Assembly: GCA_020200155.1 (NCBI GenBank)
Contig: JAIVJG010000010.1
Location: forward strand, 1 to 41,509
DNA from: Acidobacteriota bacterium
Lineage (GTDB): Bacteria > Acidobacteriota > Blastocatellia > Pyrinomonadales > Pyrinomonadaceae
Length of the DNA: 41,509 bases
Reading direction: 5' to 3'
Shown: positions 2,597 through 10,351 of the stretch, in pieces
How the letters are laid out: each line of letters begins with the position of its first letter
Numbering within the stretch: position 1 is the first letter of the stretch
Program-made: the position numbers and the translations under genes
Notes under the pieces: generated by a model
Database searches by the model: none
What the model was told of the DNA's origin: nothing
The model's input: the letters and a program-made list of their open reading frames with translations, nothing else

Positions 2597-2751
2597 TTGA
2601 GGAAAACTTGAGCCTGCCTGAAATTTTCGAGGGTTTGTTGAGACTGAGAAAAAGCTTCGGATTTGCAAGGGTTTTGACGGGCTTGAGGAAAACTTGAGAC
2701 GCTTTGAGTAGGAATCCGGGCGGAGTGAGATTGACGAAAACGCTGCTTGAG
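2597..2751. promoter_or_regulatory. Cluster of TTGAG direct repeats at about 11-bp spacing
   Basis: TTGAG or TCGAG words start at 2597, 2608, 2627, 2638, 2683, 2694, 2704 and 2747. The pairs 2597/2608, 2627/2638 and 2683/2694 are each exactly 11 bp apart, one helical turn. Two of them share the core TTGAGGAAAACTTGAG. SARP-type regulators, which like the neighbouring ORF have a winged helix plus BTAD domain, are known to bind heptamer direct repeats with 11-bp spacing. A related pair occurs at 10335-10351. The location downstream of both flanking genes is puzzling, so an operator role is an inference. Confidence 0.35.
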
Positions 2752-2770: not shown

Positions 2771-5700
2771 TTATTCGGAGTACATTCGCAGGAGCGTGGA
2801 CAGCGAGTGAGCGAGATCGGCGCGTGTGTACGTCCCGCCGGGGTTGAACTGCTCGTCGGTCGAGATCAGACCACGATCAATCGCCATCGCCACGTAAGGC
2901 TGCCACTGGCGGGGAATCGAACTCGCGTCCGTGATGGAGAGTTGCGGCGGCCTGGTTTGCGCTTCGGATTCGAGGCCTGCGGCGCGCACCAGCACGATGG
3001 CCGCGAGCAGGCGGCTGACGCGGTCGTCGGGACGGAAAGCTCCGCCGCGCATCGCGTCCGGGAAGAGCGCGCCGCCGGGCCGCGCCTGCGCGCTCTCGAC
3101 GTAGTTCATCGTCGTCATGCTGGTGACATCAGAGTAGCCGGGTTGCGCGGGAACGTAGAGCGGGATGCGTGCGCCGCCGACCATCGCCACCGCCAACTCC
3201 GAGCGCGTCACGGCGAAGGACGGGCGAAAATATTTTCCGTCGGGCCACATCGTGAAGGTGCGGATGGCCTGATGGATGTCTGCGACAAGCCGGCTGTCGA
3301 GACCGTCGAGGTCGAGCAGTGCAGAGTATTCGACGCGCGCCGCGTCAAACAGTCCCTTGTACTCCTGCGTCGTCACGCCGAGGCCGAGCGTATTCGTCAC
3401 GCTCACGCGCCATGCGCCGGACTGCGGCGCGCTGACCATCGTCCGCTCGCGCTTGCCGGTCAGGCCGGGCATGTTGAGCACGTTGACGGCGGCACGCCTC
3501 GTGCCGGACGGATCGTAGAGCGAGAGCGCGAGATCGTTGGTGCTCGTCAAAGGCCCCCAGCCGATGTCTGCGGCGGCGAGCACGGCATCCGCCGGAACCG
3601 TCACGTTGACGTTGCTCGCGCCGCCCGGCTTGACCGTGCCGGAGAACGCCAGCGTCGGCTCTTTGACGAACCTCATCTGCGCGCGATTGAAAGTGGCGCG
3701 GAACAACCCTATGCGGCGCTGCGGGAAAGCCGCTTCGAGCACCGCCGCGTGCGTGTTGAGTGAGCCGGCCCCGATCTCGTATTGATAGTAGGGCGGCAGC
3801 GGCGTCGCCGTGCGTTGCAGGATGGAGCGCACCTGCGCGGGCGTCAGGCTCGGATTCGTTTCGAGCATCAACACGATAGTCCCGGCGACTTCCGGCGCGC
3901 TGAAGCTGGTGCCGGTCGCGGTCGTGTAGTAAGGCAGTTCGCTGGACGAGAGTTGATCTGCATCCGAGCCGCCGGCGAGGCCGTTCGCGCCCGTCGTGTT
4001 CGCGCCGCTCGACGCGCGCAGGCTGAGGACGTTGACGCCCGGCGCGACCAGCGTCGGACGATAGTTGCGGCTGCCGAAGTCGCCGCGCGCGGAGAAGTCC
4101 GCCAGACGCCCGCGCTCATCCAGCGCGCCGACGCCGATAACCCACGGCGCGGCGGCGTAAGGATTCAGGGAGTGCAGGCCCGGCCCCGAATTCCCCGCCG
4201 AGAAGACGACGTTGACGCCGTGGTCGTAGAGCATTCTGGTGGCGACGTTGACGGGATCGTTCGTGTCGTAGATGGTGTTCGCAGAGAAGCTGCAATTGAC
4301 GACGCGCACGTCGAGGTCTAGGCGCGAGAGCAGGTAGTCGAAGCCCGCGAGCACGCTGAGAAGTGTCGCGTCGCCTGCGCTCAGGCCCACGAGCCGCGCC
4401 TTCGGGGCGTAGCCCGCGTACTTGCCGTTCGACTTCGCGCCGTTGCCGGCGATGATGCCGGCGACGAACGTGCCGTGCCCGCTCGCCTGATCTGTGCCCG
4501 TCGGACTCTCGATGGCCGAAGGGGGCAGGAAGCCGCCGGCGACGTTCGCGCCCTGCGCGTCGGCGAGTTTGATGTTTTTGATGACGTGGCCTGCGAGGTC
4601 TGCGTGCGTCGAGTCGAGGCCGGTGTCGAGCACGGCCACGCCGATTCCGTTGCCGGAGAGCGGGAGGCCGCCGTTGCGGTTCGTCAAATCAACGTCGGGG
4701 CGCACGCGCCTGACGCCGGTCGTCTGGCGGCTCGTGTCGGCGTTCCACTGGAGCGTCCGGTTGAGAGCGATGTGGCGCACAGCCTTGAGTTGCCGGATGG
4801 CGTTGAGCTGGCCGGGCGTCGCCGAGAGCGCCACCATCGGCAGCGCACGGTAGCGCGTGCCGCCGCGAAGTCCGAGGCTCTGAAGTTCCGCGATGTCCGA
4901 GTCCGTCACCGGCTGTTGATAGACGACGACCGCGTTCAGGTAGCTGTCGTCGGTCGCGCGGTAAAGCAGCGCGGCCAGTTCGGGGTCGAAACCGGCCAGC
5001 CCGCCGCCAACCTTGTCGCCCGCGCCCGTCGTCTCGAAAGCGTCGGCCCAGAGCGTCGTCAAGCCCACCACGCCGCTCATCATCACATTGTCCGCACCGG
5101 TCATCGTCAACGCGTCGGCCCCTGTCATCGTCAGGCCGTTCGTCGCGCCGGAGAAGATCGTGCCGTCCGTCTGCGTCACGATGACCTGAAACGCGCTGTC
5201 CAGATGGACGCTGTCGGCCCCTGTCATCGTCAGCCCGTCCGCGCCCGTCATGGTCAGGCCGTTGTTGCCGAACTGCTGCAAGCCGTCCACGCCGACCATC
5301 GTCAGGTTGTCCGCGCCCGTCATGGTCAGACCCTGCGCCTGCCGGATGACGATGGAGTTGGCGTGGTAGACGGTGCCGTCTGCGCCGGTCATGGTCAGGC
5401 CGTCAGCGCCGGTCATGGTCAGGCCGTCTGCGCCGGTCATGGTCAGGCCGTCAGCGTGCGAGGCCGCGTAACTGTTCGAGCCGGTATAAGCCACGCCGTC
5501 CGCGCCCGTGATGGTTGAGCCGTCCGCGCCCGTCATAGTCAATCCGTCGGAGCCGATCTTGAAGATGCCGTTGACGCCGAGGCCAAGCAGCGCGTCCGCG
5601 CCCGTCATCGTCAGCCCGGAGGTGTTGTCGTAGTAGATGCCGTCGGCCCCGGTCATCGTCAAGCCCTGCGTCTTCTCGACAAGGATGCCCGCGCTCGCCG

Positions 5701-8700
5701 GGATTGAACTCAGCAGGAGCATAAGGGCTAAAGAGATGGCTTGTCTGGAACTTTTCGGCACTTTCACAGGTCTTTCGGATCGGCGACGATGTTGGTTGAA
5801 GTTAAAAGTCCGTGCGGCTTCCGACACCAGGCAGGTTGCCCGCGCCGGGAAACAGGCTTGATACAGGGAACAGGCTTCATTAGGTTCGACGCCTAACTCT
5901 TTACGCAGGAGGCGTCGCAAATTTTCATACTGCTCGCGCACGGCGACGCGGTTGGCCTGCGCCGCCTGTGCGCGCATGATCATGCAGTGCACATCTTCGC
6001 GGAAGGGGTCTTCGCGCAAAATCTGTTGCGCCATGTGGAGCGAACGCGACCACTCCTCGGCCTTCTGCGCCGTCGAGGCGAGGAGTTCCAGCAGGCGCAG
6101 GTACTGTTCACGATAATAAGAGCGCTGCTCCTCGGCCCACTCGTCATAGCTGCCCTGCACGAACTCGCCGCGATAGAGCGCGACGGCCTCCTCGTAGGAT
6201 TTGACGAAACTCTCCTGCTCGCGCGAGCGGCGTGCCGCGTCGCCTTCCGTCACCAGGCGGTCGAACTCCTCGAAGTCGAAGCGATAGGAGAACTCCGGGT
6301 TGAGTTGATAGTCGCCGTCGCGGTAGAGCAGAAAGTTTTGCTTCAACGGCTGGTTGCTGTTGAGCGCCTTGCGTATGTGCGAGACGGTCGGGTGGAAATT
6401 CTTTTCAATCGCGCTGAAGTCGGCCTCGCCCCAGAAGGTATCTATGATCGTGTCCTTCGAGGCGCGGCGGTGGCGTCGCGACGCGATGAAGCACAGGATG
6501 TCGCGCGCTCGCTTCGTGACCCACGCGTCGGCGGCGAACGGGCGCGAAGGGTCTCGATAAATTTCGACCGAGCCGAGCATGTTGATCGCCAGGTCGGCGA
6601 CGGGGCCTTGCGCGATGACGACGACGGGCCGGAGCACTTCGACGGCGGGCGAAGGCGCGGCAGCGGTCGTCGCCGGGAGTTGTTCGCGCAAGTCCTGCGG
6701 GAGAAGCTCAGCCGCCTCCGGCGCGGCGAACAGCGACGGGTGCTGCGCGATCATGCGACCGAGCCAGTACTCGTAATCGTAGCGCGTCGCCAAATCCACG
6801 GCGCGGCGTAAGTGTTCGAGCATCGCGTTCTCGTCATCCGCGAGATGCTCGCAGACGGCGAGGGCGAGCGCGGCCTGCGCCTCGTTGTAGTAGAGGCCCT
6901 GCGCGCGAAAATATTTAAGGGCCGGGTAGAGGTCTGCGCGAGCCTCATCCTGCTTGCCCTGCGCGAGCAGCACACGCCCGCGCGCGAGCGTCGTGCGCTG
7001 GCAGCCCATCTCGTCGCCCGTCGCCGTGCGCGCTTCGATGAGACGGTCGAGCAAAGAGCGCGACTCGACGAGATCATTCATCTGGAGCGCGAGCATTCCC
7101 TTCTCTTCTAGCAACTCCGTGCGCGTCAGCTCGATGCCGGCCTCGTCGTAGGCTCGCGCCGCGCGGTCGTAGAACTCGACGGCGTGCGCCACGTCCTGCC
7201 GCCGTCGGTAGAGATTGCCGTAAGCCTCGAAAATCTCGCCGCGCAGGCCGGCCATGTTGAAGAGTTGGCAGCATTCGAGCGCGCGGTCTAGGTGTTGCTC
7301 GCAGGAAGCGAAGTCGCCCGTGTGCCAGTAGCAGCGCGCGATGTTGAGATGCGCGACCGATTCCTGCGGCATCGGCGGCGTGTCTGCTTCGTCGCGCAGC
7401 ATACGCCTGAGCCACCTGAGCGCCTCGCCGAAGTCGCCGCGAATCCCTGCGGGCGTTCCCAGATTGTGCGCGATCAGGCGCGCGTAATAGGCATCGCCGC
7501 GTTCCTCCGCCGATTGCAGCGCTGCGCGAAACTCTCGCTCGGCCTCCGTCCACTGGCCCAGCGCGACACGGCAAAGCCCGCGCGTGTTCCCGCATTTCGT
7601 CCGCACGACCGAATGCTCGTCCGTCAGTTCCACGGCGCGATCAAGATAAGAAAACGAAGTCGAGCAATCGCCGCGACGACGCGCGAGCGTGGCGAGCGAG
7701 TGGAGCGCCTCGGCCTCGCCCTCGTTGTCGCCCTGTTCATGCAGCAGCGATGCCGCGCGACGAAAGAGCGACTGTGCCGCGTCGAACTCGTCGCGCAGAC
7801 GAGACACTTCGGCGCGGTGCGCGAGTGCGCGCGGATGCGCTTCGAGCACAGGGGCGGGCAGGGCGTCGGCGAAAGCGGCGAGCGAAGAGAGTGCGCCCGC
7901 CGAAATCCACGCGCCGCCGCGCTCGGCGATCGTCAGCGCCGCGCGCTCGAAGTCTTCCGCCGCGAGCAGGTGGTGCATGGCCTGTTCCCACTGCCCGCGT
8001 TCGAGGAAATAATCGGCCACGCGCGCGTGCTCGGCGGCCAGGCCCGCGCGGCCCATCTCGACGCGCAGGCGACGCTGTAGAAAACTGCGGAAGAGCGGAT
8101 GCAGGCGATACTCTTCGCCGCGCCCGTCCGAGGCCAGCGTCATAAAGACGTTGCGGCGCACGAGCATCTGAAGCATCGAGCTGTTGTGCGCCTCCGGATA
8201 GAGGTGGCTGCAAGTCTCCGGCTCGACGCGTTCGAGCAGGCTGACGCGAAGCAGGAATCTCTGCACGCTCTCGGTTTCGTCGGCGAACACCTCTTCGGCG
8301 AAGTAGTCGAAGATGTCGCGCTCGGACTGCCGCAGCACTTCGATCAAGTCCGGCGAAGTCGCCGCCTCGCCTTCGGGCAAGCCGCGCGCCAGCGCCTGCC
8401 GCTGCGCCACCTGCCGGACGAGTTGCAGCGCGGTGATCCAGCCGTGTGTCCGCTCGCGATACTCGGCCAACTGCTCAGGCGTCAACTCAAGGTCGAAGAC
8501 TTTACGGAAAAGCTCGCGCGTCTCTTCGTCTGTGAAGAGCAGTTCGGCGCGGTCAACGACGGCGAGCGAAGCCTGCGTGCGCAGGCGCGAGAGCGCGAGC
8601 GGCGGCATGTCGCGCGAGATGATGATGACGTGCATCACGTCCGGCAGGTACGCGAGCAGGCGGTCAACGACGCGATGGACGGGCGTCTCCGTGCCGAGAT

Positions 8701-9205
8701 GGTGGTAGTCGTCGAGGACGAGCACGAGTTGCTGCTCGACGCGGTCGAGCACTTCGTTCAGGAGCACGTCCACGGCGCGCTCCGGCGCTTGCGCCAGTTC
8801 CTTCGCGGCCTCCTGCATGTAAGAGAACGTGACCTCGCCGAAGCCGGGCACGACCTGCTTGATGCCGTGCGTGACGTAGCCGAGGAAGACGAGCGGGTCT
8901 GCGTCCGTGTGGTCGAGTTGATACCAGACGAAGCGGCGCGCATGCGTGCGTATGAAGTCGGCGACGAGCGTCGTCTTGCCCGAACCGGCGTTGGCGGTGA
9001 CGAGCGTGACGGGGTGCGCGAGGTTTTGCAGCAGACGGTCAACGAGGCGCGGGCGCGGCAGCAGTTGCGGGGCCGGACGCGGCGGCAAAAGCTTCGTGCG
9101 CAGGAAAAAGGTCGGGAGTTGCGGCGGCGCGGCGGCACCCGTGGGCGGCACGAGCGCGCCGCTTCCCGTCTGAAGTCCTTCCTGGCGACGCGGCCTGTTC
9201 GTCAT
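2771..9205 (-). CDS. STAND ATPase-TPR-BTAD regulator in one frame with a secreted S8 subtilase (2144 aa)
   Basis: One uninterrupted frame encodes two proteins' worth of domains. Residues 1-1115 are a MalT/AfsR-like regulator. They comprise a STAND ATPase (Walker A ANAGSGKTTL at 71-80, Walker B VLVLDD at 161-166), a TPR-rich region (about 400-830), an OmpR-type winged helix (about 873-960) and a BTAD domain (about 972-1113) ending in the typical ELGVEP. A roughly 30-residue linker follows, then a signal-peptide-like segment (1147-1172) and a subtilase. The subtilase has an octapeptide-repeat region (1181-1396), an I9-like prodomain, triad residues D1527 (AVLDTG), H1577 (SGHGTF) and S1767 (TGTSFSAP), and SLH-like modules (about 2030-2140) suited to cell-surface anchoring. 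The regulator half would be cytoplasmic and the protease exported. A true fusion, a recently lost stop codon, or internal initiation at GTG 5767 are all possible. The start at 9205 has a weak AAGG upstream. Confidence 0.85.
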   Translation of the reverse strand: MTNRPRRQEGLQTGSGALVPPTGAAAPPQLPTFFLRTKLLPPRPAPQLLPRPRLVDRLLQNLAHPVTLVTANAGSGKTTLVADFIRTHARRFVWYQLDHTDADPLVFLGYVTHGIKQVVPGFGEVTFSYMQEAAKELAQAPERAVDVLLNEVLDRVEQQLVLVLDDYHHLGTETPVHRVVDRLLAYLPDVMHVIIISRDMPPLALSRLRTQASLAVVDRAELLFTDEETRELFRKVFDLELTPEQLAEYRERTHGWITALQLVRQVAQRQALARGLPEGEAATSPDLIEVLRQSERDIFDYFAEEVFADETESVQRFLLRVSLLERVEPETCSHLYPEAHNSSMLQMLVRRNVFMTLASDGRGEEYRLHPLFRSFLQRRLRVEMGRAGLAAEHARVADYFLERGQWEQAMHHLLAAEDFERAALTIAERGGAWISAGALSSLAAFADALPAPVLEAHPRALAHRAEVSRLRDEFDAAQSLFRRAASLLHEQGDNEGEAEALHSLATLARRRGDCSTSFSYLDRAVELTDEHSVVRTKCGNTRGLCRVALGQWTEAEREFRAALQSAEERGDAYYARLIAHNLGTPAGIRGDFGEALRWLRRMLRDEADTPPMPQESVAHLNIARCYWHTGDFASCEQHLDRALECCQLFNMAGLRGEIFEAYGNLYRRRQDVAHAVEFYDRAARAYDEAGIELTRTELLEEKGMLALQMNDLVESRSLLDRLIEARTATGDEMGCQRTTLARGRVLLAQGKQDEARADLYPALKYFRAQGLYYNEAQAALALAVCEHLADDENAMLEHLRRAVDLATRYDYEYWLGRMIAQHPSLFAAPEAAELLPQDLREQLPATTAAAPSPAVEVLRPVVVIAQGPVADLAINMLGSVEIYRDPSRPFAADAWVTKRARDILCFIASRRHRRASKDTIIDTFWGEADFSAIEKNFHPTVSHIRKALNSNQPLKQNFLLYRDGDYQLNPEFSYRFDFEEFDRLVTEGDAARRSREQESFVKSYEEAVALYRGEFVQGSYDEWAEEQRSYYREQYLRLLELLASTAQKAEEWSRSLHMAQQILREDPFREDVHCMIMRAQAAQANRVAVREQYENLRRLLRKELGVEPNEACSLYQACFPARATCLVSEAARTFNFNQHRRRSERPVKVPKSSRQAISLALMLLLSSIPASAGILVEKTQGLTMTGADGIYYDNTSGLTMTGADALLGLGVNGIFKIGSDGLTMTGADGSTITGADGVAYTGSNSYAASHADGLTMTGADGLTMTGADGLTMTGADGTVYHANSIVIRQAQGLTMTGADNLTMVGVDGLQQFGNNGLTMTGADGLTMTGADSVHLDSAFQVIVTQTDGTIFSGATNGLTMTGADALTMTGADNVMMSGVVGLTTLWADAFETTGAGDKVGGGLAGFDPELAALLYRATDDSYLNAVVVYQQPVTDSDIAELQSLGLRGGTRYRALPMVALSATPGQLNAIRQLKAVRHIALNRTLQWNADTSRQTTGVRRVRPDVDLTNRNGGLPLSGNGIGVAVLDTGLDSTHADLAGHVIKNIKLADAQGANVAGGFLPPSAIESPTGTDQASGHGTFVAGIIAGNGAKSNGKYAGYAPKARLVGLSAGDATLLSVLAGFDYLLSRLDLDVRVVNCSFSANTIYDTNDPVNVATRMLYDHGVNVVFSAGNSGPGLHSLNPYAAAPWVIGVGALDERGRLADFSARGDFGSRNYRPTLVAPGVNVLSLRASSGANTTGANGLAGGSDADQLSSSELPYYTTATGTSFSAPEVAGTIVLMLETNPSLTPAQVRSILQRTATPLPPYYQYEIGAGSLNTHAAVLEAAFPQRRIGLFRATFNRAQMRFVKEPTLAFSGTVKPGGASNVNVTVPADAVLAAADIGWGPLTSTNDLALSLYDPSGTRRAAVNVLNMPGLTGKRERTMVSAPQSGAWRVSVTNTLGLGVTTQEYKGLFDAARVEYSALLDLDGLDSRLVADIHQAIRTFTMWPDGKYFRPSFAVTRSELAVAMVGGARIPLYVPAQPGYSDVTSMTTMNYVESAQARPGGALFPDAMRGGAFRPDDRVSRLLAAIVLVRAAGLESEAQTRPPQLSITDASSIPRQWQPYVAMAIDRGLISTDEQFNPGGTYTRADLAHSLSTLLRMYSE
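5018..5665 (-). repeat. Octapeptide tandem repeats, consensus GLTMTGAD (27 units)
   Basis: Encoded residues 1181-1396 of the long ORF fall into 27 units of eight residues (two units are 7 and 9). Ten are exactly GLTMTGAD, and others are variants such as ALTMTGAD, GSTITGAD, NLTMVGVD and GIFKIGSD. Three adjacent units (5377-5460 region) differ by a single synonymous base, so they are recent copies. Distant units use different codons for the same residues, so the peptide has been kept by selection. The regular Gly, hydrophobic, Thr and Asp pattern suggests a beta-solenoid, possibly metal-binding, but this is inference. Confidence 0.9.
5689..5767 (-). other. Candidate internal start and signal peptide of the subtilase
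   Basis: An in-frame GTG at 5767 begins VKVPKSSRQAISLALML, a basic N-region and hydrophobic core ending in an ASA cleavage site (codon 1172 of the long ORF). Starting here gives a 998-residue subtilase with D381, H431 and S621 as its triad, a normal independent gene. A GAAAG lies 3-7 nt upstream, a weak ribosome site. The preceding residues (FNFNQHRRRSERP) do not resemble a known domain and may be read-through of a former intergenic spacer. Confidence 0.5.
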
Positions 9206-9372: not shown

Positions 9373-10176
9373 TCAGGCCGTGTCCATCGAAGACTTTGGA
9401 AATTTTTTAATCAGGTGCAGCGGGCGACTCTGGCGAGTGCCCGCTCGCGCGGCGACCAGTTTGGCGGCCTCTTCGGCGACGCCCTCAGACTTCGCCTGCG
9501 CGTCGAGTGTGGCGGCACGCCCGCGCGTCCGTGCGAGCGCGGCTTCGGCTCGCTCGACTGGCAGGCCGTAGCTGGCGAATAATTTGTCCGCCTCCTCCAA
9601 CGTGAAAGCCAGTTCCGGCTCGTCAACCACGCACAGCGTCTGCTTCGAGCGCATGCGCCAGAGCGGCGTCGGCGGCAGGCTCCTGCCGATCAGGCAGACG
9701 TGCGCCTCGCGCGGCAGCAGCGGCAGCAGTCGCCGGAAGAGCGGCACCATCCACTCTGCGTCGTAGACAAGGTGCAGGTCGTCTATGACTATCAGCAGCG
9801 GCTCGTTCGATTCCAGCAACTCGTAGACGAAATACTCGACGAGCAGGGGCACGTCGTTCAGCCCGACATGGTCGCCGAAGCGCTCCAGCGTCTTTTGCCC
9901 GAAGCCCGGTCGCTCGGCGGCGACGCTGGCGCACAGGTATTGAAAAAAGATTTGCAGTTCCACGTCCGGCGCGTCCGCCTTGTACCACGCCACGCGCCGC
10001 CCGCACTGGCGAGCGAAATCCGTCGCCAACATGGTCTTGCCCGTGCCCGTGCGCCCCTGAATGATAGTCGAATTGCAACAGGCGAGGCTCTCTTTGAGCG
10101 TGGAAATCAGGCGCGCACGAGAAATGCGCGGCAGTTCCAGAGGGGGTGCGATCTTGTCAGGGATAAACGGCGTCAT
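9373..10176 (-). CDS. ATPase-only STAND (MalT/LuxR-like) protein
   Basis: A 267-residue protein resembling the N-terminal ATPase of the neighbouring regulator. It has Walker A GRTGTGKT (41-48), Walker B LLIVIDD (127-133), and the conserved VCLIGRSLPPTPLWRMR strand-to-arm region. After about residue 220 the sequence turns into an Ala/Arg-rich tail and ends, with no TPR, winged helix or BTAD domain. It is therefore an NTPase without its own output domain, either a truncated paralogue or a partner subunit. ATG 10176 is chosen over an upstream ATG at 10260 because AAAAGAGA precedes it at good spacing and the protein similarity begins there. It is in the same orientation and immediately upstream of the long regulator ORF, which suggests a functional link. 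Confidence 0.75.
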   Translation of the reverse strand: MTPFIPDKIAPPLELPRISRARLISTLKESLACCNSTIIQGRTGTGKTMLATDFARQCGRRVAWYKADAPDVELQIFFQYLCASVAAERPGFGQKTLERFGDHVGLNDVPLLVEYFVYELLESNEPLLIVIDDLHLVYDAEWMVPLFRRLLPLLPREAHVCLIGRSLPPTPLWRMRSKQTLCVVDEPELAFTLEEADKLFASYGLPVERAEAALARTRGRAATLDAQAKSEGVAEEAAKLVAARAGTRQSRPLHLIKKFPKSSMDTA

Positions 10177-10334
10177 GTGAGTTTCTCTTTTAAGTTTCCC
10201 TTCAACAGCAGTCTGTGTGAGACGCGACAACTCGTTCCACATGCAAAGTTTAAGGGGCAAGTCGCAATTTTCAGCGTCCGGGAAGGCAGCGCCTTAGCGC
10301 CAGCCTAACCTGTGCGGGAATTTAACCGTCGGCG

Positions 10335-10351
10335 CTTGAGGAATTCTTGAG
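10335..10351. promoter_or_regulatory. CTTGAG direct repeat, 11-bp period
   Basis: CTTGAG occurs twice with starts 11 bp apart (CTTGAGGAATTCTTGAG). It matches the pairs at 2597 and 2683 except for two central bases. It lies 159 bp upstream of the ATPase start, a plausible operator position for the nearby BTAD regulator. The function is inferred from known SARP binding-site architecture. Confidence 0.4.

Follow-up and report, generated by a model that had tools for sequence, protein, structure and literature searches.

A MalT-like regulator gene and an exported subtilase gene run together in one open frame of an Acidobacteriota genome, most likely by a private deletion, and a putative SARP-type operator upstream of the regulator operon

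In MalT, the STAND activator of E. coli, an NTPase-arm-TPR part is combined with a LuxR-type HTH as the DNA-binding part, and in membrane-bound regulators of the ToxR/CadC type the DNA-binding part lies inside and a further domain outside. In AfsR and the SARP-LAL regulators (PimR) of Streptomyces, a SARP domain is combined with an NTPase and TPR. The binding sites of SARP activators are direct repeats, spaced at 11 or 22 bp and located near the -10 box (PMC10936776), and PimR uses the heptamer CGGCAAG in 11-bp units (PMC5930380).

The locus described here lies in a 41,509-nt stretch of an Acidobacteriota genome (contig JAIVJG010000010.1, referred to as the window), and its features are listed in Table 1. 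The initial annotation had described a single open frame leading from a regulator into a signal peptide and a subtilase, and this was confirmed, with 2144 codons counted from ATG and no internal stop. Pfam search of the 2144-aa product gave BTAD (residues 976-1111), TPR_12, a weak AAA_16 match (63-173), Peptidase_S8 (1518-1813) and a weak SLH match.

Table 1. Positions in the window of the joined open frame, its parts and the neighbouring features
Feature	Position	Strand	Remarks
Single open frame: regulator, linker and exported S8 protease	9205..2771	-	2144 aa
Regulator part, MalT-like NTPase, TPR and C-terminal wHTH-BTAD	5855..9205	-	residues 1-1117
SARP-type wHTH-BTAD domain	5873..6598	-	residues ~870-1111; Pfam BTAD, AfsR chains by sequence
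Imperfect direct repeat, 15 nt, 18-nt spacing; possible scar	5848..5880	.	at end of regulator homology
Linker, read as formerly intergenic	5768..5854	-	residues 1118-1146; lacks coding periodicity, promoter motif and convincing match in relatives
GTG codon, candidate separate protease start	5765..5767	-	residue 1147; weak Shine-Dalgarno match
Signal peptide	5690..5767	-	residues 1147-1172; seen in the sequence; relatives' proteases also have one
GLTMTGAD repeat region, ten exact copies	5114..5665	-	residues 1181-1364; by sequence
Peptidase_S8 domain	3767..4654	-	residues 1518-1813; Pfam and motifs
SLH, weak match	2810..2935	-	residues 2091-2132; Pfam
Small AAA protein (MalT-like NTPase part only)	9373..10260	-	conserved neighbour upstream of regulator
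Putative SARP-type operator CTCAAGAATTCCTCAAG	10335..10351	-	upstream of AAA-regulator operon; intact 11-bp direct repeat
Second operator-like site CTCAAGTTTTCCTCAAG	2682..2698	-	beyond protease stop; no clear gene downstream

The regulator contains an NTPase with Walker A and Walker B followed by TPR, which places it among the MalT-like STAND proteins; residues 35-568 (NTPase-arm-TPR) match the MalT model, but the score of 240 bits is below the NCBIfam MalT equivalog cut-off of 537, and a SARP domain stands in place of the LuxR-type HTH. This domain is a wHTH followed by BTAD and is related to AfsR both by sequence (AfsR chains 8hvr, 8jke and 8k60, matched over residues 28-270 of 282) and by profile. 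The domain order is reversed relative to AfsR and the SARP-LAL regulators, the SARP domain being C-terminal here, and the regulator's neighbours in Acidobacteriota are exported peptidases rather than antibiotic clusters. The protease part is an S8 subtilase by its Peptidase_S8 domain with the catalytic D, H and S motifs (D/H/N/S all present in the sequence), and it shares the signal peptide, these motifs and a weak SLH match with exported subtilases (PF00082), from which it differs by the GLTMTGAD region and by a frame joined to a regulator in the window's genome alone. The repeats follow the signal peptide in the window, and variants such as GITVTGADG are found in relatives.

Regulator loci in the genome collection numbered 55, and the regulator end could be read in 50 of them (four of the others run off the contig and one is masked). 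All 50 readable relatives have a regulator stop of their own, usually 11-16 codons past the GVEP motif and later in a few, after a tail resembling (A)AETQKVYRELLx. A separate protease ORF on the same strand was found in 23 distinct loci, either in the regulator's frame or in another one, its first aligned residue lying 79-460 bp further downstream. In a second set of relatives a similar protease lies upstream on the opposite strand, and the S8 protein on the downstream side is a more distant one. Comparison of orthologous loci for a stop or spacer, the check proposed with the initial annotation, thus gave two ORFs with a stop between them; among 162 genomes of the class, a regulator frame of more than 1300 codons occurs in the window only. 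Frames of 2100-2265 aa in other genomes were considered as fusions and rejected, as the matches bridge stops. An Rfam search of 12 relative loci gave no match. In loci L108-L128, where the protease is divergent from the AAA-regulator operon, two operators in the intervening space point outwards, one to the protease and one to the operon.

We conclude, with a probability of roughly 0.7, that two genes which are separate in all relatives have run together in the window's genome, most likely by a private deletion; a lineage-private deletion, or a small indel or assembly error, which the sequence of one MAG does not tell apart, is the best reading of the cause. The initial annotation had first proposed a membrane-spanning sensor, that is, one uncut and selected chain with the regulator inside and the protease outside, and such a chain would resemble the ToxR/CadC-type regulators in its topology. 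The 2144 codons without a stop, the apparently intact halves and the basic residues preceding the hydrophobic stretch of the signal peptide, which would favour an N-in orientation, speak for it. Conservation of the fusion, which a membrane sensor requires, was tested, but no fused relative was found, the linker is not coding-like, and the hydrophobic stretch, unlike that of ToxR/CadC-type proteins, belongs to an ordinary cleavable signal peptide with a normal cleavage site that is common to the unfused relatives; this reading is therefore very improbable.

Homology of the regulator is firm up to residue 1108 (GVEP) and marginal to about residue 1117 (NEACSLYQ against the relatives' tail, p 0.065), so that the end previously placed at about residue 1115 was about right. 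The non-homologous linker accordingly starts at 1109-1118 and ends at 1146, comprising about 29-37 codons. At the three codon positions the linker (residues 1110-1146) has a G+C of 0.59/0.59/0.54, whereas the regulator has 0.72/0.44/0.82 and the protease part 0.63/0.52/0.86. GC3-GC2 is -0.05 in the linker and averages 0.36 over the ORF, and the linker value falls in the lowest 0.1% of 37-codon windows of the ORF. Because coding periodicity is absent over residues 1110-1146, the linker is read as formerly intergenic DNA. A search for the linker DNA in 60 relatives gave no convincing match, and its imperfect repeat is not a genome-wide element. The second reading of the initial annotation, a lost stop followed by a read-through linker, is supported by the two ORFs of the relatives and by this non-coding composition. 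The chance that a stop-removing deletion leaves an open in-frame join was calculated by hand as about 8% (1/3 for the frame, times the probability, about 0.25, that ~37 codons of 57% G+C contain no stop), and with such a chance per deletion one open join among about 50 loci needs no selection.

The join is known from a single MAG of 312 contigs, and a wrong base count or mis-assembly at the end of the regulator, with two ORFs in the real genome, was weighed as its cause. Directly after the GVEP codons, the neighbouring frame has TAA-TGA in tandem (5882-5877), so that the reading frame could depend on one base, and a change of one base there would close it. One wrong base is nevertheless insufficient, since the relatives' tail and promoter are missing in any frame; a random chimera does not agree with a partner, order and strand that match those of the relatives, and no long exact repeat able to collapse the assembly was found. 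An artefact is accordingly considered unlikely, and a private deletion is preferred.

In the same-strand relatives, the intergenic regions were searched for motifs after trimming of the coding ends, because a first run had found only the coding end of the regulator. The motif obtained, AtygCAAGgN5CGCAACA with half-sites 11 bp apart, has a log-likelihood of 174 against about 69 for shuffled sets and scores well in 18 of the 23 loci; a motif obtained from the divergent set may be partly coding. A -10 match (at least 5/6) lies 16-22 nt downstream of the motif in 13 of these 18 loci, whereas 500 shuffles gave 1.5 such loci on average and never more than 5. The motif is absent in L100 and scores poorly in L085, L093, L103 and L104. 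It was not found at 5600-6100 of the window, where the best score was 0.9 against 17-30 in relatives, the latter values being favoured as the same sites had built the matrix. A CAAG..CAAC pair in the linker, 22 bp apart, was also weighed but set aside, as the matrix scores this region low. In L100, which lacks the motif, the intergenic region measures 78 bp and a stop and a strong Shine-Dalgarno sequence precede the protease. The protease motif (CAAG..GCAACA, with the -10 some 20 nt further) and the operator of the AAA gene (CTCAAG, with the -10 some 10 nt further) are unlike in sequence and in -10 spacing, so the former may not be a site of the same regulator.

Under the preferred reading, the ancestor would have had three genes in succession, for the small AAA protein, for a cytoplasmic STAND activator and, under a promoter of its own, for an S8 protease, and the deletion would have removed the last ~10 residues and the stop of the regulator together with the protease promoter, leaving the frames in phase. 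The protease, for which a promoter of its own is not recognisable in the window, would now be read from the upstream operator. With a conserved regulator tail and the protease promoter both gone, it could also be that the deletion was a damaging mutation and that the module is being lost from the lineage, but no frameshift or stop occurs elsewhere, the catalytic motifs are present and the upstream operator is intact, and decay is judged decidedly unlikely.

As for the protease start, the GTG codon at 5767 that had been proposed to begin the protease lies at +3 of the alignment origin, beside the ATG or GTG starts of relatives (mostly between -12 and +3), and this position argues for the proposal. 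The signal peptide reads VKVPKSSRQAISLALMLLLSSIPASA followed by G, with the expected cleavage after ASA (residue 1172; site read by eye), and even the whole polypeptide should be cut there, judging from its sequence. Mature protease would thus come either from translation starting at GTG 5767 or from a long chain that signal peptidase cuts between ASA and G, and would not be an uncut membrane sensor. A fused chain may be made: provided that the assembled bases are correct, no stop codon would halt a ribosome translating the regulator mRNA before it enters the protease. That such a polypeptide is made and kept, being exported and cut to give one protease outside per regulator tethered at the inner membrane, is quite improbable; if true, the kept fusion would couple both the location and the amount of a STAND/SARP activator to its own target.

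The site upstream of the small AAA gene consists of CTCAAG repeats with an 11-bp period and a -10 match 10 nt on, as in SARP operators, and its half-site is close to the PimR heptamer. CTCAAG-N5-CTCAA(G/C) or a close form precedes the small AAA gene in 42 of 43 loci (the loci with an identified AAA neighbour, among which L091 and L092 are the same contig). A -10 match exactly 10 nt after the operator occurs in 22 of 71 distinct sites (6 sites at the next best offset), and the pattern gave 92 sites in 40 genomes against 2 for a reversed control. Sites were present in 16/16 genomes with the regulator and 9/24 without it (Fisher p 4e-5), and after removal of one site per regulator genome the difference persisted (Mann-Whitney 8e-5); both values are optimistic, the species being related. 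Because SARP repeats recur at 11 or 22 bp and the PimR heptamer in 11-bp units, the regulator is the natural candidate protein for this operator, and we infer that it binds CTCAAG-N5-CTCAA(G/C), activating its own operon and other exported-peptidase genes.

Eight operator sites were found in the window's genome: one upstream of the AAA-regulator operon, others before genes for an M36 peptidase, an M4-like peptidase, an FTP-domain protein (two sites) and a BNR-repeat protein, one before a response-regulator-like ORF and one without a clear gene. The operator also precedes genes for exported S8 peptidases elsewhere in the genomes, although the relatives displayed with it were picked partly for nearby S8 matches and serve as illustration rather than test. 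At 31 sites chosen regardless of neighbours, hydropathy suggested a signal peptide in 11 of 23 ORFs downstream of the operator and in 4 of 16 ORFs on its other side, a modest excess. The system is likely a STAND/SARP activator of a secreted-peptidase regulon. A literature search of partial coverage found no published description of this operator or regulon. The joining of the two frames is probably an accident of this one genome, and following it up yielded an operator open to testing and, for the STAND/SARP regulators of Blastocatellia-type Acidobacteriota, a candidate regulon. The regulon would connect a sensor ATPase with secreted subtilases and metallopeptidases and suggests a way in which these largely uncultured bacteria might turn on protein breakdown.

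An operator-like site beyond the protease, similar to that at 2682-2698 of the window, is present in L104 (10499). At G000:C26 (L175), three clustered genes for exported M36, M4-like and FTP-domain proteins each follow one or two operator sites.
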